The notes beneath the pieces were generated by a model that worked only from the letters and a program-made list of their open reading frames with translations, ran no database searches and was not told the DNA's origin. From assembly GCA_903847945.1 (NCBI GenBank), contig CAINEY010000044.1, positions 1 to 64,000 on the forward strand: a stretch of 64,000 bases of DNA. The letters are read 5' to 3'. Position 1 is the stretch's first letter. Each line of letters starts with the position of its first letter. The DNA comes from an uncultured bacterium. GTDB taxonomy: Bacteria > Bacillota_I > Bacilli_A > Erysipelotrichales > Erysipelotrichaceae. This document shows positions 1 through 60,317 of this stretch, one piece after another. Position numbers and translations under genes: made by a program.

Positions 1-3000
1 CATCGTTGATCACGGTGGCGAGTTCTCGTCCATTGGCCCAGGTGAATGACAGGTTATCCCGATACGTGGTCGGATTGCCGATAGCATCGTAGGAGAGTGA
101 CTGTCCGTCATAACTGGTCAGTTTGTCTTTCCAAGCATCGGTATAGCCATAGACAATCGTATCTTCCAGGGCTCCACGAACGCCACCGGTATAGGCGTAG
201 ATCGTTTTACTGGTGAGGTTTCCACCGACGTCATAGGTGACATCGATGGACTTCTCGGAATACGCACTGTCTTCCCGAATCAACTGATTCATCTTGTCGT
301 AGGTATACTCTGCTTTAAGGGTCGATCCTTCCGTGATGGTACGGATGTTGCCGCTAGCATCATAAGTATAACTGTAAGTTGGATTCGAGCCATTGGTCAA
401 ACTGGCCAACAGGGTCGTGGTCGAGGTGGAGCCAGATCCATTGAGATAGGTGTAGGTCGTGGTATACGAGGTTGTGGTCGCAATCGTTCTGGAGGACAGA
501 CGAGCCAACTGATCAAAATCGTAACTTAAGCGAGTTGTGCCATTGAGCTTGACGGTATAGATGAGCCCAGGGATCTCGCCTTCTTTGGTGGCATCCCCAT
601 ATACATAGCTGTGAGTATACGATGAGGTACCCAATCGATTGCTCAACACATCCACCCGACCAAACGTGTCGTAATGGTAGTTGAGCGTATTGCCGTTGGA
701 GCTCACCATCTTGGTCAGACGGTTCAAGAAGTCATAAACGTAAGTCGTCGTCACCATCGATGTTCCGATGTGTTCGACAGTACGTGCCAGGTTGCCTTGA
801 TGATCATAGGCATATTCATACTTCAAGACATCATCGATCGTTTTAGAAATAACACGATGATAATCATCATAAGCAAAACTCACATCATTCCCATTCGCAT
901 AAGCAATCGAATTCAATAGTCCGTTGTTGTCTTGATAGGTATTGGTGATCAGGGTGTTTCCGGCGACCTTGATCTGATGGGGATTCCCAAAGATATCGTA
1001 GGTGAATTCATAGTCAAACCCGTTATGGGTGATCTTGGTAAGCTTATCCAAATCATACGTGTACGAGTTGGTATATGTCTTCCCATCGACGGTTTTCTTA
1101 ACATTAGTCAATAGATCCGTTCGATTATAAGTACCATTCTCATCACTATAGTCATAATAATATTTCGTAGCCTCATTTGCGGTTTCCTCAGGCGCTCTGA
1201 AGGTGTCCAAGCGACCAAAAGTCGTATTGTAACTATAATTTGCCGTGTTTCCACGCGAATCAGTCACAGAGGATATGTAATTTCCATCCAAGGTATAGGT
1301 TGCTGTAGATGTTATCCGTTTGTCCCAAGTAATCGAGTTTACCGGTGTGTCCGGATCATAGGTTCCGTTTGTTAAAGCTGTGGTATTTTCACTCACTTCA
1401 TCGGCGGTCAAAGCGTAGTTGTAAATCTGGATATTGTCGATCGTCCCATCGAAGAAATCGGATGCAGTTGAACTGTCCCATTCCTGCCCAATCACCCATG
1501 CTTTCCCACTGGTGTTTCCCAATAGAGTGTTGATTGTATAGTTTTCAGGGTAAATCGGAGATCCGTTAACATACACTTGGATCACCGACTGTGTGGCGTT
1601 GATCTGATTGATCGTGTAAACCACGGTATAACAGGTGTTAGCCAGCATGGTTCCCTGATTCTTGATGTTGCCGCGAACATTCATCTCCCAACCGCCATAG
1701 TAGCCACTTACCAGAATGTTTGATCCTGCCGTGGTGTGTTTGGCGAATAGCGCAGCATTCTTGACCACATCGGCCTTGACCGTCATGGCGACGGACAGGC
1801 TATTCCCGATGTTGAAGTCATCGAGCTGCATGTAGCCCGTCGACCCATTGAGCACTAACTGCCCATTGGAGAACGTCGCACCGCCAACGACAGTCGCATG
1901 ATGTCCATTGTTGGTTACATCGGGGACTGAAGTCCCTGAAGCGCCGGTGAAATCGTATTTGGCAATCAACTGCTTCGTATTGGCCTGCTCATAAATGGTT
2001 TCTATTTCTTGTAATTCCAAAGCGCCTTCATAGAACGCCAATTCATCGATGCTGCCTTGGAAGAAATCTGATTTGTTATTACTATCCCACTCCATCCCTA
2101 AAGCCCAGGGCTTACCGGTTGAAGTGTCTCCAACGGCTTTCGCAATGTTTGCATCATAGATCTTAATCAAATCCTTATAAACAACTACATTCGTGGTCGT
2201 ATCATTGATTTTAGTGTAGATGGCAGTAATGAAATGATAACCAAGCGTTTTGGTTCCCAGGGCATAACTCAAACCCCCAATATCAACGGTTAATGTCGAA
2301 TTGTATTCACCTATAAGTAGCTGATTATATCCCTCAGATGTATTCTTGCCGATTATGCATTCATTCGCGGAGAATCGCTCATTCTTGACCCACATGGATA
2401 CCGAGAAGGTGTCAGGAACTTTGAAATAGCCAAGTTCCGCATACTGAGTGCTGCCATCAAATCGAATTGCACTTCCAACTTTGCCATCAACAAATGTACC
2501 ACTGTTAGAGGTTGCATCGTGATTGTTACCGCTCTTATCTTCAACATCTCCATCAAAGTCATAATAGGCGATCAACTTTTTCATAAAAACGTCACTGGAA
2601 ATTGAAGTCGATGTTGGATTTCCATATTGATCGTAGGTGATCTTCGTCGATACGCCGGTTGAGCTTAGAGCGGCGGTGACCCGTTGGAAATTATCGTAAT
2701 CATAGGCAACGTAAGTTCCATCCGCGTTGATTTGACTCAAGAGTTGATTCGATTGATCATAAGTGGTCAAATCAGTATTCCCTTCAAGGTCCTTTGCCGA
2801 AAGCAAATTGCCGTTCGCATCGTAACTGAAGGTTTGCCCAAACTCCTCGCGATACAACTGAGCTCCATCAAAGGTGACCGTATTGAGTTGTTTCTTGTAC
2901 TCGAATTTGATAGTTACCGAGTTATAGGTCTTCGTAGCTACCGCTTTACCTTCCACGTACTGCCAAGAAGTTGAAGAATTTTTAAACGGGACACTCACCA

Positions 3001-6000
3001 CGGTTGTGGTCGCATCTGTGTTATTAAACGTTAGAGACATGTGGAAACTGCGCGAGGCTCCAGAAGGCGCGGCATTCGCTTTCGCCCATCCGCCAAAGGA
3101 GAACACATCCCCAGCAATTCCACTCACCGCGATCGTTTGATCGAGTGTTTTATCAGTTAAAGCGTTTCCACTGATTTGATAAGACATTGAACCAAAAACG
3201 GAGGCTGTGCTTGTCGAGAAATCAACACTGCTCGATGTACCGCTCCCACTCCAACCAACCGGTAGCGTTCCACTAACCTCTTCCAAACTCGGGTTTTCAA
3301 CCAAGTTGTACCGATTGACACCCAGTCCTTCTTCCAGTTGAATCCCGTCAAAATAGACAATTGCAGTTCCATCAACAACCAACTGGATCTGAAGTGAGGT
3401 CACCGTTTGAGGAACGGTGATCGTCGCAGAAATGCGTTGCCAGACATTCGCTTCATCCACTGCAATGTCAATGCTTGTGGCACTACCGCCAACCAAACTG
3501 ACATGAGCGACTCCTACTGCATTCGATTTCACATACGCCGAAACGGTGAAATTCGTTTCTTGATCTAGAGTAACAGGAATGTTTTCATACGCTTTGATGA
3601 CTCGCTCAGCTGTACCATCGTGTGTGATTGTTAAGCTGTTTGCCCCGAAGAGTTTATCGGTCGTGGAGTAGATGGGGGTAATCAAAAGACCGGAAGTATC
3701 ACTTTGTGCCCAATCACTCGTCGTCTCAAAACTGATATTCTTCGCAAGATTGACGGTCGTCGTCTGCAGTTTGGAGACACTTGTTAACTTATTCTTTTCC
3801 CCTCCAGAGGCTCCATATTGATAATACTGTGCAGCATTGTTGATGTCTTTGATCCCGATCGTACGTCCATAATTATCAAACTGATAGTAGACAGTTTGAT
3901 CATATTTGTCCGTAATTGACGTTTCGTAAGGTTGATAACTAAATGCATACTCATTCCCGGTAGTTACTTCATCAGTCCCATACTCAGTCATGCTGGTAAT
4001 AATCTTGGGAGATCCCAAATAAGTGAATTGTACGGAGGAACCATCACTGTCTTCCGCTTTAGTGATCTTGTACTCAGCATCATAGTAATAGGAAACTTCA
4101 CTTGAATCTGGATAGGTTACCATCATGGTTTTTGCATTGCTATCATAGGTGTAACTAACCGTTCTTAAAACGGTCGATCCCGTGCCTAAGTACTCGATCT
4201 TGGTTAAAAAACCGTTGGTGTACGTAAAATCGTATTTTCTTTCAGAGGAGTCTTTGATGTAATCAATCAGAGATCCTGCGTAGGTAATCTCAACTTCATT
4301 GACCGTTTCGCCAAAATCCTTCAACTTCATAAGATAACCCGTGCTGTTGAACTCGAGTTTGTTTTTATTCTTATCCGTAATCACATACCGTGCCGTCGTA
4401 CTACCCGTATCGATTGTAAGTGTCAGTCCTTTTCCTAACTCATCGATCCACTGTCCATTGAGTGAGTAAAAGTAAACGGTAGTCCCATCCCCATCCAAAT
4501 ACTTGTAATAAGTGGTTCCGCCAATAGATGTTGATCCAATCGTTTGGTTGTAGTTAGTTTTCCAGCTGTACCGTTCACCGGTCGCTTTTGGATCATAATT
4601 ATAGAATGACGTGATCGAGACCGGAAGTTTTCCACCGGTTATAGCCAGATCATCACGCATCAGGGTCAGAAATCCGGTGTTATTATTGACAAGCGCCAAC
4701 CCAGCTCTACCCATATCTTGTGTCGTATAAGTCCACAAATCCTCAAGACCGTTGGTGTTGACGTAGGTGATTTGAAGCGAGGGATACAATCCATCAATGC
4801 CATATCCGGTGCCAACATATTTGTTACGAGCATACAATGTGCCAGCTTCAAAAGCGTCGGTTGATTTGATCATCACTCCGTTATTTATTTTCGTGCCATC
4901 ATACCAGCTTTGCACAAGTTGGGTAATATCCCAAGTATTGTATTCAACATTGTATGCGGAACTGGTAATAAAATAGTCAGAAATGATGTCAGTGTCATAA
5001 TCGACATTCGTATTCCAGGTGGTGGTCGTTAAGTCCCAGTCCTCAGTGATCTCGTGAAGATTCAATTGAAGGGTCGAAGGACCCCCAGAACTAAATCCAC
5101 TGACATCCTGCAGCATATTCAATTTGGCACTGATGACTTTATCGCCATTCCCTAATGGTGGTAACGTTGGATACTTGATCAAAATACGACAAGTTCCGTA
5201 AGTAGCTCCTTCACGGCCCACCCATGTGGATCCCATATAGTAATAAGCGGTATTTGGTTTCCAGGAGCTGACAAATGTATCCGAGATCTTACTGATATCT
5301 TGAGCGGTATATGTGGTGGGGTCAACGGTCACAGGATAGACAGTTGACGGATCATTCAACCAATTCGAGTCAGCTTTCGTCTGCAGAATCATTTTTCCAT
5401 TATCTTGGGAAATGATATTAAGTTGAACATCAAGACTAAAGCGACCACTCGCATCACTCATTAAAGGAGCTGATAAGATGATTTGTGGTACATCCGGCTG
5501 ATCTGGATCAATCAATACGATCGTTTGGCTATCCCTTTGTATTGCTATTAACTCGCCTAACTGATATTCGGAGACAAAGGTGTTTTGAGCAAACTGATTC
5601 TTCAAAATAATGTCTTCTTTTAACGACAAAGAGCTAAGTGTATATCTGACATCCACATTCGGGAATATGTCACGATAAATCACCTGAGACTGCTTATTCT
5701 TCAAATTCAGGTATGCATCATCACTGGTAAGGTAAGTCGGATTAGTGCCAACCAACACTTCCGCAAAGACTTTATTAGCGTTAACAAAGTCCCATTTCAA
5801 TGGATAGGTATTGATCGTCGTCGATACCAGGTTTCGATTTTGAGTATTTCTTGAGAACTTAACTGTAAACTTACCACGGTTATTTTGGAGGATTTGAACA
5901 TCAGTGGGATCTTCGGCATTTATGATTGAAAACGAGTTATCAATGTCATCCCATTGCCCCGTGCTTCCCTTGACATGAATGGGTTCATCGTAGACTGCGA

Positions 6001-6196
6001 TCATCTCCGTACGATCGCTCAATAAGAAGGTCTTACTGTACTCGTCACGCTTCTCTGTGACCTCACCAACGATAACGGCTTCTTGTTTTGAGATGTTGGG
6101 CAAATCTGAATTGATTGCCAGAACGCGCTCGGTTAGCGCAGCAAAAAACAAACTTATACTCAGCAAGCCGATGACGAACGATCTAAGATGTTTCAT
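1..6196 (-). CDS. Giant secreted RHS/YD-repeat protein with DNRLRE and LamG-like domains, 5' part only
   Basis: The frame is open from an ATG at 6196 to the left edge, 2065 codons with no stop, so the C-terminus lies outside the window. A GGGGGA ribosome site sits just upstream. Residues 1-27 form a signal peptide (KH, hydrophobic stretch, ending VLA). A DNRLRE-like domain covers about 290-480. An RHS-type start (GKLPVSITSFYNY) lies near 519, followed by YD repeats. Two carbohydrate-binding-like jelly-roll modules fall near 815-955 and 963-1115. Two LamG-like modules (YYDFDGDVEDKSGNNHDA and KYDFTGASG) lie at about 1206-1390 and 1406-1594. YD repeats resume to the edge, ending FTWANGRELATVIND. 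Such proteins are secreted or wall-bound and often carry a toxin tip at the C-terminus, in the WapA style. Whether this one does cannot be seen. It is transcribed in the same direction as plsC but 255 bases away. Confidence 0.9.
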   Translation of the reverse strand, partial: MKHLRSFVIGLLSISLFFAALTERVLAINSDLPNISKQEAVIVGEVTEKRDEYSKTFLLSDRTEMIAVYDEPIHVKGSTGQWDDIDNSFSIINAEDPTDVQILQNNRGKFTVKFSRNTQNRNLVSTTINTYPLKWDFVNANKVFAEVLVGTNPTYLTSDDAYLNLKNKQSQVIYRDIFPNVDVRYTLSSLSLKEDIILKNQFAQNTFVSEYQLGELIAIQRDSQTIVLIDPDQPDVPQIILSAPLMSDASGRFSLDVQLNIISQDNGKMILQTKADSNWLNDPSTVYPVTVDPTTYTAQDISKISDTFVSSWKPNTAYYYMGSTWVGREGATYGTCRILIKYPTLPPLGNGDKVISAKLNMLQDVSGFSSGGPSTLQLNLHEITEDWDLTTTTWNTNVDYDTDIISDYFITSSAYNVEYNTWDITQLVQSWYDGTKINNGVMIKSTDAFEAGTLYARNKYVGTGYGIDGLYPSLQITYVNTNGLEDLWTYTTQDMGRAGLALVNNNTGFLTLMRDDLAITGGKLPVSITSFYNYDPKATGERYSWKTNYNQTIGSTSIGGTTYYKYLDGDGTTVYFYSLNGQWIDELGKGLTLTIDTGSTTARYVITDKNKNKLEFNSTGYLMKLKDFGETVNEVEITYAGSLIDYIKDSSERKYDFTYTNGFLTKIEYLGTGSTVLRTVSYTYDSNAKTMMVTYPDSSEVSYYYDAEYKITKAEDSDGSSVQFTYLGSPKIITSMTEYGTDEVTTGNEYAFSYQPYETSITDKYDQTVYYQFDNYGRTIGIKDINNAAQYYQYGASGGEKNKLTSVSKLQTTTVNLAKNISFETTSDWAQSDTSGLLITPIYSTTDKLFGANSLTITHDGTAERVIKAYENIPVTLDQETNFTVSAYVKSNAVGVAHVSLVGGSATSIDIAVDEANVWQRISATITVPQTVTSLQIQLVVDGTAIVYFDGIQLEEGLGVNRYNLVENPSLEEVSGTLPVGWSGSGTSSSVDFSTSTASVFGSMSYQISGNALTDKTLDQTIAVSGIAGDVFSFGGWAKANAAPSGASRSFHMSLTFNNTDATTTVVSVPFKNSSTSWQYVEGKAVATKTYNSVTIKFEYKKQLNTVTFDGAQLYREEFGQTFSYDANGNLLSAKDLEGNTDLTTYDQSNQLLSQINADGTYVAYDYDNFQRVTAALSSTGVSTKITYDQYGNPTSTSISSDVFMKKLIAYYDFDGDVEDKSGNNHDATSNSGTFVDGKVGSAIRFDGSTQYAELGYFKVPDTFSVSMWVKNERFSANECIIGKNTSEGYNQLLIGEYNSTLTVDIGGLSYALGTKTLGYHFITAIYTKINDTTTNVVVYKDLIKIYDANIAKAVGDTSTGKPWALGMEWDSNNKSDFFQGSIDELAFYEGALELQEIETIYEQANTKQLIAKYDFTGASGTSVPDVTNNGHHATVVGGATFSNGQLVLNGSTGYMQLDDFNIGNSLSVAMTVKADVVKNAALFAKHTTAGSNILVSGYYGGWEMNVRGNIKNQGTMLANTCYTVVYTINQINATQSVIQVYVNGSPIYPENYTINTLLGNTSGKAWVIGQEWDSSTASDFFDGTIDNIQIYNYALTADEVSENTTALTNGTYDPDTPVNSITWDKRITSTATYTLDGNYISSVTDSRGNTANYSYNTTFGRLDTFRAPEETANEATKYYYDYSDENGTYNRTDLLTNVKKTVDGKTYTNSYTYDLDKLTKITHNGFDYEFTYDIFGNPHQIKVAGNTLITNTYQDNNGLLNSIAYANGNDVSFAYDDYHRVISKTIDDVLKYEYAYDHQGNLARTVEHIGTSMVTTTYVYDFLNRLTKMVSSNGNTLNYHYDTFGRVDVLSNRLGTSSYTHSYVYGDATKEGEIPGLIYTVKLNGTTRLSYDFDQLARLSSRTIATTTSYTTTYTYLNGSGSTSTTTLLASLTNGSNPTYSYTYDASGNIRTITEGSTLKAEYTYDKMNQLIREDSAYSEKSIDVTYDVGGNLTSKTIYAYTGGVRGALEDTIVYGYTDAWKDKLTSYDGQSLSYDAIGNPTTYRDNLSFTWANGRELATVIND

Positions 6197-17338: not shown

Positions 17339-18130
17339 ATGGACACACTCGATCGCCCGGCCTTGGATGCCGCCCTGATTTCAGCCCACTGCCCACCCCC
17401 CTTCACGTCGATTACCGTCATCGAGAGCACTGGTTCCACCAACGATGACCTCAAGAAAAACGCCGCCAAACTGAAGCATGGCAGCGTTTTGATCAGCAAT
17501 ACCCAAACCGCCGGTAAAGGCCGAAACGGACGGACGTTCTTTTCAGCGCCGGATGTCGGGATCTATTGTTCGATCTTATTGAAGCCGAAGTTCGATCCGT
17601 ACAATTATCTGCGTTTATCGATCCTTTCCGGCATCATTCTGTGTGAGACGATCCGCGAGTACACGGGAATCGCTCCGACCTTGAAATGGCCCAACGACAT
17701 CCTGATCCGCGGCAAGAAAGTCGCCGGGATCTTATGCGAAAGTCAATACCAAGCCAACAAAGCTTCTCCTTTCATCATCGGTTGGGGACTAAATGTTTAC
17801 ACTCAGGAGTTCCCCAAAGAGCTTGAGGACATCGCCACGACTTTGGAGGACAATAGCTCCTGGCCCTTGGACAGAAACCTCTTGGTTCAGGATTTCCTGA
17901 TTCGATTGGCAGCGTATCTTCCGCGCTTGGAAGGGCTGGAGTTAGGTAAAATGGCGTACACGTACGATCTTAAACGCGGTACGCCGATTACCGTCCAAGA
18001 TCCCAAAGGCGCCTATCCGGCCAACATCGTGGGCATCAATGATTTGGGTCAACTGATCATCAGTCGCGGGGATGAAATATCCACCCTGGTCTCTTACGAA
18101 ATCACGATCCGCGAAGACGGAGACGAATAG
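17339..18130 (+). CDS. birA: Biotin--[acetyl-CoA-carboxylase] ligase, without DNA-binding domain
   Basis: Activates biotin with ATP and attaches it to the AccB lysine. The ligase core has STGSTNDDLKK, the biotinyl-AMP loop TAGKGRNGR and KWPNDILIRGKKVAGIL, followed by the small C-terminal SH3-like domain. The protein is 263 residues and begins directly with the ligase domain, so it lacks the helix-turn-helix that lets longer BirA proteins repress biotin genes. It is therefore a pure enzyme (group I). It is divergent from the operon that encodes its only visible substrate. Its 3' end overlaps the convergent amidohydrolase gene by 37 bases. Confidence 0.93.
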   Translation: MDTLDRPALDAALISAHCPPPFTSITVIESTGSTNDDLKKNAAKLKHGSVLISNTQTAGKGRNGRTFFSAPDVGIYCSILLKPKFDPYNYLRLSILSGIILCETIREYTGIAPTLKWPNDILIRGKKVAGILCESQYQANKASPFIIGWGLNVYTQEFPKELEDIATTLEDNSSWPLDRNLLVQDFLIRLAAYLPRLEGLELGKMAYTYDLKRGTPITVQDPKGAYPANIVGINDLGQLIISRGDEISTLVSYEITIREDGDE

Positions 18131-19695
18131 ACCCATTCCCCGTTCAACATCGTCGCTTCCACCCTTACATGTTGAATCGACAAGGAATCGATCGTAAAGA
18201 CATCTTCGCTGAGGACGACTAAATCGGCCCATTGGCCTAATGCCAATCGGCCTTTTTTTGTGTCGTCAAAGGAACACCAGGCTCCACCTGAAGTGCACGC
18301 ATCGATTGCGCTATAAATGTCCGAGGCGTGTTGCGGGGTAAACGGTAAATCCTGCGATCCTACCGGAAGTCGATTGACGGCACAATGGATCCAGTGAAGG
18401 ACGTTCATGGTTTCGATCGGTGCATCGGAACTGTACGCGACCGGTATTCCCAGCCGTTCCATCGATCCAAACGCATACGAACTGGACATCAAGGTTTTTT
18501 CAACCCGTTGAGGAACGATTGCGATATCGGTGTTTAAAAAGATCGGTTGAACATACCCAATCAGTTTGAGTCGCGCCATACGTTCGAGTTGTTCCAAGCG
18601 GGAGATCTGAACGTGCACGATGCCCCAGCGGTGCGGATTATCCGGTTTCAGGTGTTTCTCGTACGCATTGAGTACGCGCTCCAATGCTTCATCCCCGATG
18701 GCATGGATCAAGATCGGAACATCCTTCATCGCTCCGACCAAGTCATCCAACTCGGTTTGAGTGTAATTGGCGATTCCGTGATTGTCCGGTTCGTTGAGAT
18801 ACCCCTCACGCATGAACGCCGTCTTAGCGCCTAATGAACCATCCATGTAGAACTTGATGGCCCCAAACACATGAAACGGATCCGGTTTTCCCATGAGCGA
18901 ACGCAAAGGTTCTTGATGAAGCTGATGGGGATCCTCCAAGAAGATCTGATGGAAGATGCGCAGTTTATTGTGCTTCACAAAACGCTGATACCCTTCAAAT
19001 CGGGCGTTGAATTCCACATCCATAAAAGTGATATCATTGGGTTGAACCGAGGTGATTCCGTAGGCGTGCACTTCCGGCAGCATCGCCAATAATGCCTCTT
19101 CGACGCGCTGCGGCGTCAACTTCTCCCGAAACGGAGCCAATAGGTCAATGGCGGATTCGGTAAAGATCCCTACGGGAGATCCGTGCCCATCCACCGGAAT
19201 GTTTGGGGCGTAAGCAGCGACGATTTCATTGGAAAGGCTCAGCGATTTAAGTACCATCGAGTTGACAGAAACCACATGGCCGCAGGTCCGATACAAAAGG
19301 ATCGGAACCGTGGTGGAGATCTCATCCAGATCTTTGGCTTCCGGCAAGCGTTGAGGACCTTCGATAAATCGGTTCTGGTCGTAACCGCGTCCCCACAGGA
19401 CCAGCGTTGGGTGATCCTGAAGAAATGATTTCCCTTGGGTGATCAACTCACTGAGTGACGTGACGCCATCCAAATGCAGTTGATCCCGCATCAATGCCAT
19501 ACCTAAAAGGTGGAGGTGCGAATCGTTGAAGCCGGGAACAACGGTCTTTCCGTGAAGATCGATGACTCGATCACCCGGTTGGGCTTGAACATCCAGTCCG
19601 ACAATGGTGCCGTGATCAATGCGGCATGAGGACGCAAAATGATCTCGGTAGAGGTAGAATTTCCCGTTGATCAGCGTCAGGGCTTGGGGTCTCAT
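18094..19695 (-). CDS. YtcJ-type metal-dependent amidohydrolase
   Basis: A 533-residue amidohydrolase of the YtcJ / N-substituted formamide deformylase branch. The metal-binding HxH motif is in VPGFNDSHLHLLG near residue 55, with later ligands in PILIHAIGDEALE and HVQISRLEQLERM, and Asp in AYSSDAPIETMN. Substrates of this group are poorly known. There is no signal peptide, so it acts in the cytoplasm. It is a single gene, convergent and overlapping with birA. The ATG lies only 8 bases from an extended -10 box and has no ribosome site, so the mRNA may be nearly leaderless. Confidence 0.85.
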   Translation of the reverse strand: MRPQALTLINGKFYLYRDHFASSCRIDHGTIVGLDVQAQPGDRVIDLHGKTVVPGFNDSHLHLLGMALMRDQLHLDGVTSLSELITQGKSFLQDHPTLVLWGRGYDQNRFIEGPQRLPEAKDLDEISTTVPILLYRTCGHVVSVNSMVLKSLSLSNEIVAAYAPNIPVDGHGSPVGIFTESAIDLLAPFREKLTPQRVEEALLAMLPEVHAYGITSVQPNDITFMDVEFNARFEGYQRFVKHNKLRIFHQIFLEDPHQLHQEPLRSLMGKPDPFHVFGAIKFYMDGSLGAKTAFMREGYLNEPDNHGIANYTQTELDDLVGAMKDVPILIHAIGDEALERVLNAYEKHLKPDNPHRWGIVHVQISRLEQLERMARLKLIGYVQPIFLNTDIAIVPQRVEKTLMSSSYAFGSMERLGIPVAYSSDAPIETMNVLHWIHCAVNRLPVGSQDLPFTPQHASDIYSAIDACTSGGAWCSFDDTKKGRLALGQWADLVVLSEDVFTIDSLSIQHVRVEATMLNGEWVYSSPSSRIVIS

Positions 19696-19703
19696 ATGCC
19701 AAA

Positions 19704-19712
19704 ACTATACCA
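19704..19712 (-). promoter_or_regulatory. Extended -10 of the amidohydrolase gene, very close to its ATG
   Basis: On the minus strand TGG-TATAGT ends 8 bases before the ATG at 19695 (spacer TTTGGCAT). A start of transcription about 7 bases past the -10 would leave a leader of 0-2 bases and no ribosome site. Confidence 0.6.
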
Positions 19713-19720
19713 CATATTCA

Positions 19721-19754
19721 TTGTTTTCATGGCTTACATCATTTACAATGTAAA
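19721..19754 (+). promoter_or_regulatory. Promoter and operator-like palindrome of the aconitase operon
   Basis: TTGTTT (19721-19726) and TACAAT (19744-19749) are 17 bases apart. The perfect palindrome TTTACA-A-TGTAAA (19742-19754) covers the -10 box, a position expected for a repressor site. It is not a cre site (no central CG) and not the ATAA-N7-TTAT dyad of CcpC. GGAGG precedes the ATG at 19776. Confidence 0.65.
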
Positions 19755-19775
19755 CATATTCATGGAGGTTGACCC

Positions 19776-21713
19776 ATGGGACTGACCCTTACTGCCAAGA
19801 TCTTGCAACAGCATTGCCTTAAAGGCAACTTAGTTGCCGGCGAAGAGATCGCCGTCAGAGTACACCAAACCCTGACTCAGGACTCCACCGGAACGATGGT
19901 GTACCTGCAGCTTTTAGCTTTGGATCCACAAAAAGTCCAAACCGAGGTCTCCGTGGCCTACATCGATCACAACATGCTGCAGACCGGATTTGAGAATGCC
20001 GATGATCACGTATTCATTCAATCCGTGGCTCAGCATTACGGGATCATCACCTCCAAAGCCGGAGGAGGCATCTGTCACCAGGTCCATTTGGAACGCTTTG
20101 CCAAGCCCAATACCGTACTGATCGGATCGGACAGTCATACGCCGACCTGTGGCGGTTTAGGTGCTTTGGCCATTGGTACCGGCGGTTTGGATGTCGCCGT
20201 AGGCATGGCGAAAGGACTCTATTTCCTGAAAGTCCCCAAAGTTTATCAGATCGTTCTGACGGGTAAACCCTCTACCACCATCAACGGTAAAGATATCATT
20301 CTCAGTGTCCTGCGTCACATCAGCGTGACCGGCGGATTAGGCCATGTGTTGGAGTACTCCGGGGATGGGATCCACTACCTCAGTGTGACCGATCGAGCCA
20401 CGATCTGCAACATGGGTGCCGAAGCCGGAGCGACCACCTCCATCTTCCCGTCCGACCAACAAACCCTCACGTACCTGACTCAACAAGGTCGTCCCCAGGA
20501 TTATGTGCCGCTCGAAGCCGATAAAAATGCGGTTTATGATCAAACCTTGACCTTGGATCTCTCCACCATCGTCCCGATGGCGGCCAAACCGCATTCACCG
20601 GACAATGTCGTCCCCGTGAGTGACGTCGCCGGCATCAAGATCGATCAGGTCTCCATCGGATCGTGCACGAACTCTTCGTATGCCGACATGATGAAAGTCG
20701 CCAAGATCCTCAAAGGTCGTCAAGTCCATCCGGATGTCTCCCTGGTAATTACTCCGGGCTCCGCCAACATCTTGCGTTTGATGGCGGAAAACGGTGCTTT
20801 GGCTGATATGGTCACGGCGGGAGCCCGGATCTTGGAATCCGCCTGTGGTCCCTGCATCGGGATGGGACAAGCCCCGCGTTCCGGAGGAGTTTCTTTACGC
20901 ACGTTCAACCGTAACTTCAAAGGACGCAGCGGAACGGCTGATGCGCAAGTTTACATCGTGTCACCGGAAACGGCAGCCTACTCCGCGATTACCGGAACCC
21001 TCAGCGATCCGCGTGAACTTAACCAGGATCTGCGGGTCATTCAACCCGCCAGTTACGGAAAGGTCGATCGTTTCTTCGTCTACCCGGGTCAACCCAAAGT
21101 CACTCCGGTGATCATGGGTCCCAACATCAAGCCTTTCCCCTTAGCCAAACCCTTACCGGACACCCTGCGTTATCCGGTCCTCTTAAGTGTGGGTGACAAC
21201 ATCACCACCGATGACATTGTTCCTTCGCACGCCAAGCTCTTACCGTTTCGATCCAACATCCCGCATTTGGCGACCTTCTGTTTCACCGCCATTAATTCCA
21301 CTTTTGCGCAACGAGCCGCTGATGCCCAAGGCGGTTTCATCATCGCCAAGTCCAATTACGGTCAAGGATCCAGCCGTGAGCACGCGGCTCTGATTCCCCT
21401 TTACCTCGGCATCAAAGCCGTCATTGCGATCAGTTTTGCCCGCATTCACCGTTCCAACCTCATCAACGCCGGCATCTTACCTTTAGTGGTGGATGATCCT
21501 TCGCTTATTGACACGATCAAACCCGGTGACGTTTTGGCCTTGGATAGTCTTCAAAGCACCGTCGATCATAACGGCCATGTGACCGTGCTCAATGAAACGC
21601 AAGGTACGTCGTTGACGTGTTCGATGAGTCTTTCTCCCCGTGAAGCGCAAGTATTGCGGCATGGCGGTTACCTCAACACCATCAAATCGGTCGATCTTCA
21701 GGAGATTGCATGA
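19776..21713 (+). CDS. Aconitate hydratase
   Basis: Interconverts citrate and isocitrate using a 4Fe-4S cluster. The cluster cysteines are Cys297 (GSCTNSS) and Cys357/Cys360 (SACGPCIGMGQ). SDSHTPTCGGLGALAIG and the swivel-domain motifs SNYGQGSSREHAAL and IHRSNLINAGILPL are present. At 645 residues this is the shorter single-chain form found in anaerobes, not the ~900-residue AcnA. The last codons overlap the start of the isocitrate dehydrogenase gene by 4 bases. Confidence 0.95.
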   Translation: MGLTLTAKILQQHCLKGNLVAGEEIAVRVHQTLTQDSTGTMVYLQLLALDPQKVQTEVSVAYIDHNMLQTGFENADDHVFIQSVAQHYGIITSKAGGGICHQVHLERFAKPNTVLIGSDSHTPTCGGLGALAIGTGGLDVAVGMAKGLYFLKVPKVYQIVLTGKPSTTINGKDIILSVLRHISVTGGLGHVLEYSGDGIHYLSVTDRATICNMGAEAGATTSIFPSDQQTLTYLTQQGRPQDYVPLEADKNAVYDQTLTLDLSTIVPMAAKPHSPDNVVPVSDVAGIKIDQVSIGSCTNSSYADMMKVAKILKGRQVHPDVSLVITPGSANILRLMAENGALADMVTAGARILESACGPCIGMGQAPRSGGVSLRTFNRNFKGRSGTADAQVYIVSPETAAYSAITGTLSDPRELNQDLRVIQPASYGKVDRFFVYPGQPKVTPVIMGPNIKPFPLAKPLPDTLRYPVLLSVGDNITTDDIVPSHAKLLPFRSNIPHLATFCFTAINSTFAQRAADAQGGFIIAKSNYGQGSSREHAALIPLYLGIKAVIAISFARIHRSNLINAGILPLVVDDPSLIDTIKPGDVLALDSLQSTVDHNGHVTVLNETQGTSLTCSMSLSPREAQVLRHGGYLNTIKSVDLQEIA

Positions 21714-36836: not shown

Positions 36837-38075
36837 TTAGTAGGTCCGTCGTTGGACGATGGTTTGAGTTTGAAGGCGGTAAGCAGTGTTCATGAGGGTA
36901 AAATACATGCCGGGGGTCAACACCGGAGTCAGTCGGATCATGGCTACCCGGCGATCCTTGATCAGGGATTCCACCATGGTGACGCAGTTGATGCTGACGG
37001 CGAAGTAAGTTCTGAATAAGCCGGAGGTAAACTTGAGTAAGCGGGCTCCCGTGGCTTTTTGAAGGCGGTCGATATAGATCGGCGAAGTGGGATCACTGGA
37101 CACCGGTTGCCACGGCTCACTGCGCGCCAACAAGCGATTCAACCGGGTTTCAAAGGCACTGAGGGTGTCAGGACCCGGTTCGATCACATAGCCCACCATG
37201 CGTTTGTGTTCGCTGTTGAGGCAGAACTCCAGATAAGGCTGAGCCTTGGCGATAATGAAGACTCCGTCACCGAATCCGTTGAGGATGCGGCGTTTAAGCG
37301 GATCGTGGGCTCCATAACTGTAGACGACGCCGCGATGAATCAGATCGACATGGCCAATTGCATCGGCTCCAGCCCGTTTCATGTGGAAGAGGATTTCAAA
37401 CTGATGATCCTCCAACGGCTTTAACGTACTTTCGGGGATCGGCGATTGGGCTTCCACCGAAGCGAAGATCTGTTGGGGAACGAACAAGGACAGAAACAAG
37501 GGCATCGGGGACGAAATGATGTGGGAAACGACTCCTTTCAGCCGATGTTGGAAAGCGGCCAAGAGTCCCCCGGTCAAGGTGACACTACCCAAATACAAGG
37601 CATAGATCCCCGCCACGGTCATCAACCGCAAATACCCCGGAAGCGGATCCACCAACAGAATGAGGGCAAAACTCAACGTGATCAACGCATCCGCCATGGC
37701 CAGCCATCGGGGTCGAATGTGATCCATCCGATACGCCAACCAGCTGAGAAACTTGGAGATGGCCCGTAGTACAGCCCATACCCCATAGAGAATCGGAATC
37801 AAGACTTCCAGAATGATCGGTAATCGCCAGCTCAGGATCGCCAGCCCCAACAACACAAATCCCATCCATCCGGATTGACGCGAGGAGGAAGGGCCACTGA
37901 ATCGTTGAAGCAGGGTCAAAACACTGAGCCCCAATAGACCCAACGTATTGAAAAGGACGGCCCACTGACCGACCCGTTGCGGGTCCATGACAGCCAACAC
38001 CCCTAAGCCCATCAACACCAGACCGGAAATGATCAAGGTGGAAGCATGGAGTTGTTGTCGCCAGAAGCGGTTCAT
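36837..38075 (-). CDS. DUF308-like membrane protein with C-terminal permuted papain-like domain
   Basis: 412 residues. Roughly residues 12-175 hold six or seven membrane segments in a repeat typical of HdeD/DUF308 proteins, and another hydrophobic stretch runs from about 183 to 205. The C-terminal soluble half has AIGHVDLIHRGVVYSYG (His242) and, much later, VSINCVTMVES (Cys364). A His before a Cys, in that spacing and with these contexts, fits the permuted papain-like (YiiX/LRAT/DUF4105) fold, which cleaves or transfers acyl or peptide groups; this is inference. It heads the ptb-buk-vor operon. TTGTTT-17-TATACT stands 6 bases before the ATG, with no ribosome site. Confidence 0.72.
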   Translation of the reverse strand: MNRFWRQQLHASTLIISGLVLMGLGVLAVMDPQRVGQWAVLFNTLGLLGLSVLTLLQRFSGPSSSRQSGWMGFVLLGLAILSWRLPIILEVLIPILYGVWAVLRAISKFLSWLAYRMDHIRPRWLAMADALITLSFALILLVDPLPGYLRLMTVAGIYALYLGSVTLTGGLLAAFQHRLKGVVSHIISSPMPLFLSLFVPQQIFASVEAQSPIPESTLKPLEDHQFEILFHMKRAGADAIGHVDLIHRGVVYSYGAHDPLKRRILNGFGDGVFIIAKAQPYLEFCLNSEHKRMVGYVIEPGPDTLSAFETRLNRLLARSEPWQPVSSDPTSPIYIDRLQKATGARLLKFTSGLFRTYFAVSINCVTMVESLIKDRRVAMIRLTPVLTPGMYFTLMNTAYRLQTQTIVQRRTY

Positions 38076-38081
38076 ACTCTC

Positions 38082-38110
38082 AGTATAAGAGAGCGCCTGC
38101 CGTTAAACAA
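38082..38110 (-). promoter_or_regulatory. Promoter of the branched-chain fermentation operon, nearly leaderless
   Basis: TTGTTT (38105-38110) and TATACT (38082-38087) are 17 bases apart on the minus strand. Only six bases (GAGAGT) separate the -10 from the ATG at 38075. Confidence 0.72.
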
Positions 38111-38111
38111 G

Positions 38112-38138
38112 CATCCGATGAAACGGATGTGCTACACT
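38112..38138 (+). promoter_or_regulatory. Extended -10 promoter of the DUF438 gene with inverted repeat
   Basis: TGC-TACACT ends at 38138, six bases before the ATG at 38145. Upstream CATCCG-N6-CGGATG (38112-38129) is a perfect inverted repeat filling the spacer, a possible operator. The back-to-back promoter at 38082-38110 is immediately adjacent. Confidence 0.6.
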
Positions 38139-38144
38139 GGAATT

Positions 38145-39308
38145 ATGGAGACCATTATGAACCCATCTTTAACCCGTCAAGAGCGCTTATTGGCGTATTT
38201 TCAATTGTTGGAGAATGGTCAAGGCAGCCTGGATGCCTTCCGAACGATCGAATCCGAGTTGAACACCTTGACCCACTTGGAGCTCTTCGAACTCTTCAAT
38301 CTGAAACTGAAGACCCAACAACCCCGGGAGATCCTACCTTATGTGGATCGCGTCATGCATGTGGTGACCCCGTTTCTCAAATCCCAAGTAGTGGACTTAC
38401 CCAACGATTCGATCTTGGCCCTTCTCGTCAAGGAGAACGATGCTCTCAAACTGAAGCTTCAAGCCATCCAAACCAAACTTCAGCGTTTTCCGATCGTCCC
38501 TTCCGAACTCAAGGAAGATTTCGAAATCCTTAACGCCTTTACACCGCATTACCTGAAGATCCAGAATGTACTCTTCCCTCATTTGGAACGCAAAGATTCG
38601 CGCTTGACGGGAACCAAGATCTTGTGGTCACTCCAAGACCAAACCAAGGCCATTCTCAAAACCCTGATTCAGGATTGCCAAACCAAAACCCAAACTGATG
38701 ATGCCTTCCATCAACATTTGGGCACTTATTTCTTCAACGCATACGGGCTCATTCAGAAAGAAGAAGTGATCCTCTTTCAAGTGGCCATGCAGGTGTTGAG
38801 CGCCGAAGATCTGGATCTGATCTACGACCAATGTCTGGAATTTCCGTGGTGCTATATCGAGGTCCCAGCTCGTTTACCTAAAGCCACCGCAAAGAGTTCG
38901 ACTGCTGTATCGAGCCTGACCGGTCAGCTTACCCCGGATCAGTTGGAATTGTTGTTGAATGCTTTGCCGCTGGATCTGACCTTGATCGATGAACACGATA
39001 AGGTTCGTTACTTCAATAAACCTAAGGATCGAACTTTTCCCCGTTCACCAGCGGTCATTGGTCGGGATGTTCGCAACTGTCATCCGGCGGAAAGTGTGCA
39101 CGTGGTCAACGCGATCTTGGAGGCCTTCCGTAACGGTGAACGCGATGAAGCCAAGTTCTGGCTCCCCATCAAGCACCAGTTCTTGCTGATCCGATATCTG
39201 GCTCTACGGGATGAGCACGGCACGTATCGGGGATGCTTGGAGATCACGCAAGATATCGCACCGATCCAAGCCATCACCGGAACCCGACGTTTACTCGATT
39301 GGGACTAA
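38145..39308 (+). CDS. DUF438 / hemerythrin / PAS domain protein
   Basis: About 387 residues. The first 80 or so match DUF438 (RQERLLAYFQLLENGQ, HLELFELFNLKL). The middle has a hemerythrin-type HHE helix bundle (APH-like FTPHYLKIQNVLFPHLERKD, later HQHLG and EEVILFQVAMQVLS). The C-terminal part is a PAS domain (LDLTLIDEHDKVRYFNKP, GRDVRNCHP, FWLPIKHQFLLIRYLALRDEHG). Together they suggest a cytosolic sensor of oxygen, nitric oxide or iron state. Two starts are possible: 38145 (METIMNPS, six bases from a -10) and 38157 (MNPSLTRQ, GGAG seven bases away). Confidence 0.85.
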   Translation: METIMNPSLTRQERLLAYFQLLENGQGSLDAFRTIESELNTLTHLELFELFNLKLKTQQPREILPYVDRVMHVVTPFLKSQVVDLPNDSILALLVKENDALKLKLQAIQTKLQRFPIVPSELKEDFEILNAFTPHYLKIQNVLFPHLERKDSRLTGTKILWSLQDQTKAILKTLIQDCQTKTQTDDAFHQHLGTYFFNAYGLIQKEEVILFQVAMQVLSAEDLDLIYDQCLEFPWCYIEVPARLPKATAKSSTAVSSLTGQLTPDQLELLLNALPLDLTLIDEHDKVRYFNKPKDRTFPRSPAVIGRDVRNCHPAESVHVVNAILEAFRNGERDEAKFWLPIKHQFLLIRYLALRDEHGTYRGCLEITQDIAPIQAITGTRRLLDWD

Positions 39309-39332
39309 AAAGAATGCTCTAGGGCATTCTTT
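39309..39332. terminator. Bidirectional terminator between the DUF438 and GGDEF genes
   Basis: AAAGAATGC and GCATTCTTT form a 9-bp stem with a 6-base loop; T-rich tracts follow in both directions. The stop of the diguanylate cyclase gene lies in the loop. Confidence 0.82.
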
Positions 39333-41013
39333 CTTGTTTATGACGAGTTTTCTCCTCATACATGCGCTGATCTGCTTCGTGGATGATGCGATCCGGATCG
39401 GTCTTTTGCGGATCGATCGTTGAGGTGCCGATGGACAGGCGAATTTGCAGGGTGATCTCTTCCACCTGCATCGGTTCCTCGAATTGCATATTAAGCCGTT
39501 CAACGACCAATTCGATCGGGTACTCCGCATCGAGTGCAACGACGATGACGAACTCATCACCCGCAAAGCGTACAACATGGTCATTATCCCGAACCGCCGC
39601 CTTTAAGCGCAAGGACGCTTGACGAAGCACCGTATCTCCGGCTTCATGGCCATAGGTATCGTTGATGAGCTTGAAATCATCGATGTCGATAAAGATCAGG
39701 TAATGGGATTCAGTCGTACTCGTCTTGGGTAAATGGGTTAGCACCTCATACAGGTATGCCCGATTACCCAGCCCAGTCAGATAGTCTGTCATCACGTCTT
39801 TTTCAAGGGATTCCTTTTCGACTTTCAAGGAACTGAAACGAATGACGACTGAAACGGCAACACTGACAACAAAAGCAAAGGAAGTAAAGAACACCGCGTA
39901 TTGGATCGAATCGACAAACAGTTCCGCAAAAGTCCCGCTCACCAGCGCAATTCCACCGATCAAAAGATACCCGGCAGACTCATCCCGCTTCTTCAGTCCT
40001 TGGATCAGCAAGTAGAAAGCAAACAGCGAATAAGCAACAATGATGGCGCGATTGATCGAGTAGGACCATTCCAAAGCCACATCATTGGCCAACAGGATGA
40101 ACAGGGTAACGACAAGCGCATAGCCCTTGATGACACGTTCACGCTGGGGATTATGGGGCAAGAACTCCAACGATTCCAAAATCATAGCCAAGACAGGTAC
40201 CAGAATGTAACCGCTCCAGTATTCCAATTTCAAGATCCAAATCAAGGGTAAACCACCAACCACCGGAGCAATCAAATGCGTCCCGGTGCTGATCACGCGA
40301 AGCGCCATGATCAATGCAAACAGACTGGTGTAAAAGGAAGTCATCTCTTTTCTAATGCTGGAGAACAGCAAAAACAACAGACCGATGCTCAGCATGACCG
40401 CAAACACCAACACTTCAAATCCGACGATCATCGTGTAATGGTTCACGATTACATCCGGAAATCCAAACTCCATCGCGTGCCAGAAGCCTCCGGTTCGACG
40501 GGTGAAATTGGCCATCTCCAGTTGGAAGTCGGCTTGACCCAACTCATCAGTCGTAAAGAAACCAACGACGGTCTTAACCGCCGGTATATACGACTCGGGA
40601 GAATCGCTAACGACACCATTCCCCATGACGTAATTCCCGTTAACAGTCAGTTTATAAGATCCAGCTTCATCTTGGGTGGTGACCGCATAGACGGTGTTGG
40701 GCAATAAGCCTCTCACCGTTAAGCGGTAGGTCGCCACCCCTTTGAGGTTTTGACCTTCAATTTCGGCCCACAGGTGTTCACCATCCACCCAAACCATCGG
40801 AGTAGAGTCCGTGATATCCTTGGCGAGGGTATTGGGGTAAAGTGCCCATTCTCCTTGTAATTGAACACGGGCATTGCCGATCGATGACGAAAAAGCTACA
40901 ACGCCTTGATTGGCTGTGACTGTCGTGATCGACGATTGATTGATGCGCGCAAAGAATAACCCTATCAATACGAGGATTGTTCCTACGACGAGAATAAAGC
41001 GGCTCTTTTTCAT
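39319..41013 (-). CDS. Membrane diguanylate cyclase with 7TM-DISM-like sensor region
   Basis: 564 residues. An N-terminal anchor (residues 7-22) is followed by an extracytoplasmic beta-rich domain like 7TMR-DISMED2 (WALYPNTL, YRLTVRGL, YKLTVNGN), then seven membrane segments (about 205-390) and a GGDEF domain at the C-terminus. The active-site loop reads AGDEF, an accepted variant. The inhibitory RxxD site is present as RDND five residues before it. It should make cyclic di-GMP in response to an external signal. The -10 (TGT-TAAAAT) is 11 bases from the ATG, so the leader is very short. Confidence 0.88.
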   Translation of the reverse strand: MKKSRFILVVGTILVLIGLFFARINQSSITTVTANQGVVAFSSSIGNARVQLQGEWALYPNTLAKDITDSTPMVWVDGEHLWAEIEGQNLKGVATYRLTVRGLLPNTVYAVTTQDEAGSYKLTVNGNYVMGNGVVSDSPESYIPAVKTVVGFFTTDELGQADFQLEMANFTRRTGGFWHAMEFGFPDVIVNHYTMIVGFEVLVFAVMLSIGLLFLLFSSIRKEMTSFYTSLFALIMALRVISTGTHLIAPVVGGLPLIWILKLEYWSGYILVPVLAMILESLEFLPHNPQRERVIKGYALVVTLFILLANDVALEWSYSINRAIIVAYSLFAFYLLIQGLKKRDESAGYLLIGGIALVSGTFAELFVDSIQYAVFFTSFAFVVSVAVSVVIRFSSLKVEKESLEKDVMTDYLTGLGNRAYLYEVLTHLPKTSTTESHYLIFIDIDDFKLINDTYGHEAGDTVLRQASLRLKAAVRDNDHVVRFAGDEFVIVVALDAEYPIELVVERLNMQFEEPMQVEEITLQIRLSIGTSTIDPQKTDPDRIIHEADQRMYEEKTRHKQERMP

Positions 41014-41051
41014 ACCTTAACTAGATTTTAACACAATATTGCAAACAAATA

Positions 41052-43918: not shown

Positions 43919-43945
43919 AAAAAAGCGATCCTTAGAGGATCGCTT
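43919..43945 (-). terminator. Terminator of the C39-like gene
   Basis: AAGCGATCC pairs with GGATCGCTT and six T follow on the minus strand. The TAA stop of the gene is in the loop. Confidence 0.85.
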
Positions 43946-44543
43946 CAAAATATAAGAATCCGCCTCCGGCCCGTGAACTGGTGAGCCAGAGAATCAAATC
44001 GATGAAGAAGACTTTTCCGCCGTCCACGATTTCCACTTCCACTTGGGAGTGATCCGCCGTACAACGAATCGCGGTTACCAACACCCAATGATAAGCCTCC
44101 AAGTTTCGCACTTGACCGTTGTGCAAGTTGAGAAACGGCACCGGGATGTCTTTCTCCAGCGCCTCACGAATGAAGTGAATCGAGTCTTCGATCAAGGGAC
44201 GTTTGTCTTTGGCCTTGGGTATGGGCAGGCAATGAACCGTATGTTGAATCGAGTGTTCCGCCAAGTACGCCGAGAACCCGGTTTTGAAACGTTCCAGCGT
44301 ATCGACACCACGCATGTTTGGGGTAACGTACTTCCAGGTTTCTTCCATCCGTAAAAGAGCGGATTCCTTGGAGAGCGGCACACTGGGGAAGAACTGAAGG
44401 AGCGACAAGGAGGCTGCCGTGGTTGGACCGCAACCTGAAAGGCGCTGCCAACGGGTGGTGTACCACTCCTGATCGCAACCGGTATGATCCACAGCTTCTA
44501 GACGTAAGCGGTCGAGATGACGAATCCGCAACAATCGTTCCAT
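43932..44543 (-). CDS. Cytosolic C39-like papain-fold protein of unknown function
   Basis: 203 residues. The Cys of SGCGPTTAASLSLLQF (Cys38), His of EAYHWVLVTAI (His152) and Asp of EIVDGGKVFFI (Asp174) match the triad of the peptidase C39-like family. No signal peptide or membrane segment is seen, so it may act inside the cell, unlike most of the family. The start at 44543 was chosen because TGC-TACACT ends six bases before it; the frame to 44729 only repeats korB sequence in another phase. No ribosome site is visible. Confidence 0.75.
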   Translation of the reverse strand: MERLLRIRHLDRLRLEAVDHTGCDQEWYTTRWQRLSGCGPTTAASLSLLQFFPSVPLSKESALLRMEETWKYVTPNMRGVDTLERFKTGFSAYLAEHSIQHTVHCLPIPKAKDKRPLIEDSIHFIREALEKDIPVPFLNLHNGQVRNLEAYHWVLVTAIRCTADHSQVEVEIVDGGKVFFIDLILWLTSSRAGGGFLYFEAIL

Positions 44544-44549
44544 ACGTTC

Positions 44550-44558
44550 AGTGTAGCA
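44550..44558 (-). promoter_or_regulatory. Extended -10 of the C39-like gene, six bases from the ATG
   Basis: TGC-TACACT on the minus strand, then GAACGT and ATG at 44543. The same nine-base element and spacing precede the DUF438 gene at 38145. Confidence 0.6.
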
Positions 44559-56485: not shown

Positions 56486-56508
56486 TTCGTTCACGAACGC
56501 GTTATAAT
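56486..56508 (+). promoter_or_regulatory. Promoter region of the CPBP gene with inverted repeat
   Basis: TATAAT (56503-56508) stands 9 bases before the ATG. Upstream TTCGT-TC-ACGAA (56486-56497) repeats the core found in the leader of the gene at 47680; 12 of 13 bases agree. Confidence 0.55.
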
Positions 56509-56517
56509 GGGCTTAAG

Positions 56518-57207
56518 ATGCGTGATCAACACCCTTTCACATTGGATCCAACCCGACATCTCATTCTGCTGATCCTCACCGGCTGTGGTTTGATGGCAGT
56601 GATCGATGCCTCCCCCTGGCCTTATCCCATCAAGGCACTCTGCAAGATGACCCTGTTCATCGGGATCCCTTTCACGTGGTCCCTTCGACATCCCGACTGG
56701 CCTAAAACCGATCTAAAACTTCCTACCCGACCATTGGTGATCAAGCTGCTGTGGTTGGCTCTGGCGGAGATCGTGGCGATCGTGGCGATTATTGGGCTGG
56801 TATTGCCGTGGGTTGATACCTCCCTGCTTGAAGGGGTCTTGCGGGAGAACTTTGACGGTCGACCCTGGGTGTTTTTGGGGGTCACTGTATATATCGTCAT
56901 CATCAATGCCTTTTTGGAAGAGTGGTACTTCCGGGACTTTGCCTATTTGAGATTACGTCAATGCTTACCCCAAAACATGGCATTGATCTTGAGTGCTTTC
57001 TTGTTTTCGGCGTACCATCTGGCCCTGATGGCCGGATTGTTTCCGTTGCCTCTCTACATCATCTTTGTGATTGGACTAGCCGGCGTTGGTGCCGTATTCA
57101 ATGTGATCGATGATCGGTATAATTCGTTGTGGCCTTCGTTTGTCATTCATGCTTCCGCTAATCTGGCCATGAATCTGATCGCTATGCAGATCTTGGGTTT
57201 CCTATAA
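56518..57207 (+). CDS. CPBP (CAAX protease-like) membrane protein
   Basis: 229 residues with about six membrane segments. The three CPBP motifs are present: EEWYFRDF (Glu-Glu and Arg), SAYHL (His) and HASANLAMN (His, Asn). Such proteins are membrane glutamic proteases, sometimes linked to bacteriocin immunity. The ATG at 56518 lies 9 bases from the -10 with no ribosome site; an ATG at 56461 is upstream of the -10 and cannot be used from this promoter. Confidence 0.83.
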   Translation: MRDQHPFTLDPTRHLILLILTGCGLMAVIDASPWPYPIKALCKMTLFIGIPFTWSLRHPDWPKTDLKLPTRPLVIKLLWLALAEIVAIVAIIGLVLPWVDTSLLEGVLRENFDGRPWVFLGVTVYIVIINAFLEEWYFRDFAYLRLRQCLPQNMALILSAFLFSAYHLALMAGLFPLPLYIIFVIGLAGVGAVFNVIDDRYNSLWPSFVIHASANLAMNLIAMQILGFL

Positions 57208-59741: not shown

Positions 59742-60302
59742 TCATTTCTTGATCCAGGGACGAATGATCGACCCCACTGCCAATCCACTGACTAACAGCA
59801 TCGATCCCACCACAAAGAACCATTTCACCGGGATCATCAGAACCGCCAGTTCAGTAAGGCCAAGAATTCGTTGCGGATAAAACACGAAAACCAGCGAAAC
59901 GAGTGTATTTTCCAAGTAATCAAACACGACCCCCAACGGAATGATGACCAAGGTTTGTTTCAATCCAAATCCAGCCTTCAAACGTTTCATCCAATAAAGG
60001 CCGCTGACCCATAGAAATCCACCGTACACCAACGGAAACGCAAGATCAAACGTCCACCGTTGAATAAGGTAAGCTTGACGTAACGAACTCCCGTACCCTT
60101 CCGCAATTGTCCACAACTGATCGGCACTCAAGCCAAACGATGTATCGATGGATTGGGTCAGTCCGACACTTTCTCCCCATTGTGAAACGGCCGGGAGCAC
60201 CCAAAGGATAAAGGCGAGGAAAACAAGCGAAAACAGACTGCCCCATCGGCCATTAACGCGGTTCATTCCGCGATCGATGAGATTGTTCCACCAGGATTTC
60301 AT
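59742..60302 (-). CDS. Membrane protein of unknown function
   Basis: 186 residues with four or five membrane segments (SLFSLVFLAFILWVLPAV, LAFPLVYGGFLWVSGLY, TLVIIPLGVVFDYLENTLVSLVFVF, WFFVVGSMLLVSGLAVG). No family is recognised. It precedes the ABC transporter gene by 7 bases and is presumably cotranscribed. The ATG at 60302 lies six bases from an extended -10 and has no ribosome site; the longer frame to 60365 starts upstream of that promoter. Confidence 0.72.
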   Translation of the reverse strand: MKSWWNNLIDRGMNRVNGRWGSLFSLVFLAFILWVLPAVSQWGESVGLTQSIDTSFGLSADQLWTIAEGYGSSLRQAYLIQRWTFDLAFPLVYGGFLWVSGLYWMKRLKAGFGLKQTLVIIPLGVVFDYLENTLVSLVFVFYPQRILGLTELAVLMIPVKWFFVVGSMLLVSGLAVGSIIRPWIKK

Positions 60303-60308
60303 GGTTTT

Positions 60309-60317
60309 ATTATACCA
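60309..60317 (-). promoter_or_regulatory. Extended -10 promoter, nearly leaderless, of the membrane protein-ABC operon
   Basis: TGG-TATAAT on the minus strand, then AAAACC and the ATG at 60302. Confidence 0.65.

Follow-up and report, generated by a model that had tools for sequence, protein, structure and literature searches.

Genes with a -10 box close to the start codon form a putative leaderless class in an uncultured Erysipelotrichaceae bacterium

How is a gene transcribed and translated when its -10 box lies so near the ATG that a ribosome-binding site has no room? This question is raised by a 64,000-nucleotide stretch of DNA (the window), located on contig C44 of the 1.53-Mb genome of an uncultured bacterium (63 contigs, 79% complete). 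The aconitase-family protein of this genome shares 68-70% identity with those of Erysipelotrichaceae MAGs, the nearest named relatives (Bacillota, class Erysipelotrichia). A preliminary description of the window had reported a nearly leaderless class of six genes, together with a similar cyclase gene, in which the -10 box is found 6-11 bases from the ATG and no usable ribosome site is present. The seven boxes and their spacings were all found as described, and none of the seven ATGs has a Shine-Dalgarno (SD) match of at least 4 bases at a usable spacing. The TGn extension, stated for four or five of the genes, is present at 38145, 44543, 60302, 19695 and 41013 and absent at 38075 (TCT) and 56518 (CGT). 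Neither Rfam nor tRNA scans gave matches in the window.

For the DUF308-type membrane protein (gene 36837-38075, minus strand), the putative leaderless start covers positions 38073-38087, with TATACT at 38082-38087, 6 nt before the ATG at 38075. The three same-genus orthologs found (G001, G002 and G003) all carry TATACT-N6-ATG without a usable SD; an SD is present in most of the more distant relatives. The divergent PAS_10 gene (38145-39308, plus strand) has a candidate leaderless start at 38130-38147, where TGC-TACACT (38130-38138) ends 6 nt before the ATG at 38145. Its alternative start is confirmed: the ATG at 38157 is in frame, has GGAG in front of it and would give a 12-nt leader. Orthologs in G002, G003, G005, G006 and G007 are SD-led and start near this second ATG (residue ~5-9), so the membership of 38145 is doubtful; the gene may be translated from the second ATG with a 12-nt leader, or both starts may be in use. 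In G003 the PAS_10 ortholog (L124, G003:C26:77898-78924) is divided between two frames that overlap, pointing to either a frameshift or a mistake in assembly.

A gene without a Pfam family (43932-44543, minus strand) has its putative leaderless start at 44541-44558, with TGC-TACACT at 44550-44558, 6 nt before the ATG at 44543. Its orthologs show TGC-TAAGAT 7 nt from the ATG in G004 and G005, TGA-TATGAT 9 nt from the ATG in G007, and longer leaders in G001-G003. The membrane-protein-like gene 59742-60302 (minus strand) carries TGG-TATAAT (60309-60317), 6 nt before the ATG at 60302, within a putative leaderless start at 60300-60317; no homologs were found among 20 relatives.

Near-leaderless starts are predicted for two further genes. 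In the amidohydrolase gene (18094-19695, minus strand; start region 19693-19712), TGG-TATAGT (19704-19712) lies 8 nt before the ATG at 19695, and an in-frame stop is found 12 nt upstream. The N-termini of its orthologs align within a few residues; these orthologs are mostly SD-led, and the one in G038 has TATAAT-6-ATG. The G001 ortholog (L153, G001:C27:4081-5679) contains an in-frame TAA. In the CPBP/Rce1-like protease gene (56518-57207, plus strand; start region 56503-56520), TATAAT (56503-56508) is placed 9 nt before the ATG at 56518, and the orthologs in G001 and G002 have an SD-like leader. The diguanylate cyclase gene (39319-41013, minus strand; start region 41011-41033) had been called similar. 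It does have TGT-TAAAAT (41025-41033) 11 nt from the ATG at 41013, but this spacing is beyond the 6-9 nt peak described below and would give, at best, a very short leader. The divergent pairs 19695-19776 and 38075-38145 have intergenic regions of 69-80 bp, and the former pair is near-leaderless on one side with a normal SD leader on the other.

By itself, the window evidence for a class is suggestive. For its 94 candidate ATGs, chance predicts 0.28 boxes at 6-9 nt when at least 5 positions must match TATAAT, and 1.3 boxes when 4 suffice. Four of the described genes qualify at the stricter threshold and six at the looser one, 56518 having been entered by hand as its automatic start lay downstream. 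The boxes of 44543 and 38145 could individually be chance boxes, and 38145 and 41013 are weak members of the set. Because the window is only suggestive, the test was extended to the genome.

The census covered 677 kb of the genome, window included, with 569 genes called by a hexamer coding score in which upstream signals are unused. A TA...T hexamer upstream of a candidate ATG counted as a box if it agreed with TATAAT at 5 or more positions, and ATGs internal to the same genes served as the null (~0.75 per 1000 per position; 0.69 expected per position). The genome-wide count of -10-to-ATG distances, which had been proposed as a check, gives a sharp peak: 24 boxes lie exactly 6 nt before the ATG vs 0.69 expected (p ~1e-28). 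A simpler gene caller reproduces the peak (25 vs 0.78 expected). Spacings of 7, 8 and 9 nt account for 11, 8 and 5 boxes, and the 6-9 nt range as a whole for 48 vs 2.7 expected. About 2.7 of these 48 are thus expected by chance, and the excess of ~45 genes corresponds to ~8% of genes, about one in twelve. Spacings of 0-5 nt have 0-4 boxes each, with a single box at 5 nt, and a second, broad hump at 17-23 nt marks the -10 position of SD-led genes. Other start codons in the 677 kb lack a clear peak at 6 nt (TTG 0, GTG 3).

The 6-nt genes share the consensus T-G-n-TATAAT-RRRR-(C/G)-Y-ATG. The first T of the box falls at -12 and TANNNT exceeds chance genome-wide, as in the TA-like signal discussed below. 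An SD match of at least 5 bases is found in 0 of the 24 genes; the figure is 69% for leadered genes (those with a -10 15-25 nt away) and 50% for the remaining ATG genes. Among the 7-9 nt genes such a match occurs in 2 of 24, which makes them a less pure set than the 6-nt genes. A pyrimidine occupies -1 in 24/24 of the latter, compared with 72% of the remaining and 95% of the leadered genes; this fits a transcription start at the A of the ATG but is not decisive. TGn precedes 28 of the 48 boxes at 6-9 nt and only 16 of 391 -10-like hexamers inside genes. It is also common in leadered promoters (25/61), and a higher rate in the class is suggestive only (p=0.08). No -35 excess is detected in the class, where -35-like sequences (4 or more of 6) occur in 17% vs 12% in shuffles, in contrast to leadered promoters (30% vs 12% shuffled). 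The class thus combines TGn with a weak or absent -35, the combination that characterizes extended -10 promoters.

The class includes LspA, IspH, UppP/BacA, RlmA, a LysR regulator, a penicillin-binding protein and a MutY-like glycosylase. Conserved domains begin close behind the ATG, at residue 3 (RlmA ribbon), 4 (LysR HTH), 9 (LspA), 10 (UppP/BacA) and 12 (IspH), and use of the following in-frame start codon would truncate the domain in both the LysR and the RlmA gene. These onsets and the 38075 orthologs indicate that the ATG is probably the true translation start in the class, though not clearly so at 38145. The own 16S of the genome was searched for and not found. The 16S 3' end of relatives, from complete or partial genes, carries the normal anti-SD GGATCACCTCCTTTCT, so the SD absence appears gene-specific and an altered anti-SD was rejected as its cause.

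Relatives were surveyed with the pattern TATAATRRRN{1,3}YATG, which admits 5, 6 and 7 nt equally, and with the reversed pattern as control. The pattern gives 22 matches in this genome vs 0 for the reversed form. It is present in 8/8 genomes of the genus, with a 6-nt spacing in 121 of the 150 matches listed. The control yields 0-4 per genome, except in G007, where 13 reversed against 16 pattern matches make the genome weak evidence by itself. The 6-nt excess is also seen in G004, of the same genus with 40% GC (12 vs 1.9 expected), and in G009, from another genus of the family with 30% GC (21 vs 2.2 expected; SD of at least 4 bases in 1/22). In G009 (L207-L216) the class is denser still, with 21-22 boxes at 6 nt in ~150 genes. 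The 6-nt peak is absent in G021 (family), in G014 and G018 (order), in a small named Erysipelotrichaceae set (82 genes), and in 1.1 Mb of DNA drawn mainly from Clostridia and Tissierellia. The trait is therefore patchy. Since the orthologs of 19695 and 56518 are mostly SD-led, class membership also appears to turn over gene by gene.

Leaderless mRNAs are translated from a 5'-terminal AUG by a ribosome already bound to initiator tRNA. We propose that the genes of the class are leaderless and that their mRNAs arise mostly from extended -10 promoters, a reading that the sequence evidence makes very probable. The preliminary proposal of a near-leaderless class is borne out by the genome-wide 6-nt peak, the SD absence, the -1 pyrimidine, the recurrence in the genus, and the orthologs of 38075 and part of those of 44543. 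The class is real at the sequence level, and production of leaderless mRNAs is its most likely meaning. A housekeeping-sigma -10 box, TATAAT-like, often with TGn and without a recognizable -35, ends ahead of the ATG, most often by 6 nt and in fewer genes by 7-9 nt. From this spacing we infer that RNA polymerase starts at the A of the AUG or no more than ~3 nt from it. The resulting mRNA would have no space for an SD sequence, and a ribosome with initiator tRNA already bound would start on the 5'-terminal AUG. About 8% of genes would be leaderless in this way beside an SD-led majority, with single genes entering or leaving the class in evolution.

Other explanations were weighed against leaderless initiation. 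The main transcripts could come from further upstream, the near boxes being secondary promoters. In Clostridium phytofermentans, ~4% of intergenic TSSs could give leaderless transcripts, and the genes retain an upstream TSS and RBS (PMC5171806). Several class genes lie less than 60 nt behind a same-strand gene, from which read-through is possible. Longer transcripts, however, would need an RBS that is missing here (SD of at least 5 bases in 0/24), and we regard this arrangement as unlikely. Slightly less probable still is that the boxes are real promoters of genes whose translation begins further downstream in the frame, at a codon that has its own ribosome site, which would make the ATG incidental. 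The preliminary description had named later start codons as an outcome that would count against it. This outcome finds support at 38145, where GGAG stands at good spacing before 38157 and the SD-led orthologs start at the corresponding place. It fits poorly with several other class genes, whose conserved domains start only 3-12 residues in from the ATG. Moreover, an incidental ATG would not cluster at one spacing (24 boxes at 6 nt against a single one at 5 nt), and the spacing at 38075 is kept in orthologs.

The boxes could also represent chance AT-rich sequence near start codons, as a weaker box with 4 TATAAT matches is expected ~1.3 times among the window's candidate ATGs. This is very improbable given the internal-ATG null and the reversed pattern, and for the class as a whole these two controls rule out chance AT-richness.

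The proposed initiation is of a known kind. Zheng et al. 2011 described leaderless genes with a TA-like signal, TAtaaT ~12 bp upstream of the start codon and no SD. Of 209 Firmicutes genomes, 56 have such genes, which make up 2.4-16.6% of their genes with a mean of 4.2%, and most of these genomes belong to Lactobacillales and Mycoplasma; the Firmicutes form is TAtAAT, with a TG peak (Lactococcus) replacing the -35 (PMC3160421). The earlier remark that leaderless initiation is not usually stressed in this phylum is therefore only partly right. The genes reported here resemble those of Zheng et al. in box position, in the TG and in the lack of an SD, and differ in lineage (Erysipelotrichia) and in their patchy distribution. 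In Deinococcus-Thermus, a -10 motif beside the ATG was experimentally shown to drive leaderless mRNA; ~30% of ORFs have a loose TANNNT (PMC12340547), whereas here ~8% have a near-consensus TATAAT, often with TGn, on sequence evidence. The Mollicutes, low-GC Gram-positive relatives with leaderless mRNAs, have TSSs on the first base of the start codon in M. gallisepticum (PMC4245973) and Mesoplasma florum (PMC7745072), with about nine cases each by 5'-end mapping; more genes are indicated here, from sequence alone.

In the literature covered by our search, no dedicated report of leaderless genes for Erysipelotrichia or Erysipelothrix was found, and the class is apparently unreported in this lineage, which it would add to those with leaderless genes. 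Tentatively, the leaderless extended -10 class may be an old, patchily kept feature of Erysipelotrichia and Mollicutes, with genes switching between leaderless and SD-led forms within one genus, although we would not favor this over its contrary. If true, such an ancient patchy class could serve as a model for the exchange of initiation modes. Species of one genus appear to differ in whether a given gene is leaderless or SD-led, which makes the mode switch open to study. Gene finders that expect an SD will misplace some class starts, and the coding-potential caller placed the starts of 60302 and 56518 too far downstream. Elsewhere in the window, 2-6196 (minus strand) is occupied by one reading frame, at least 2065 codons long, that runs off the left end.
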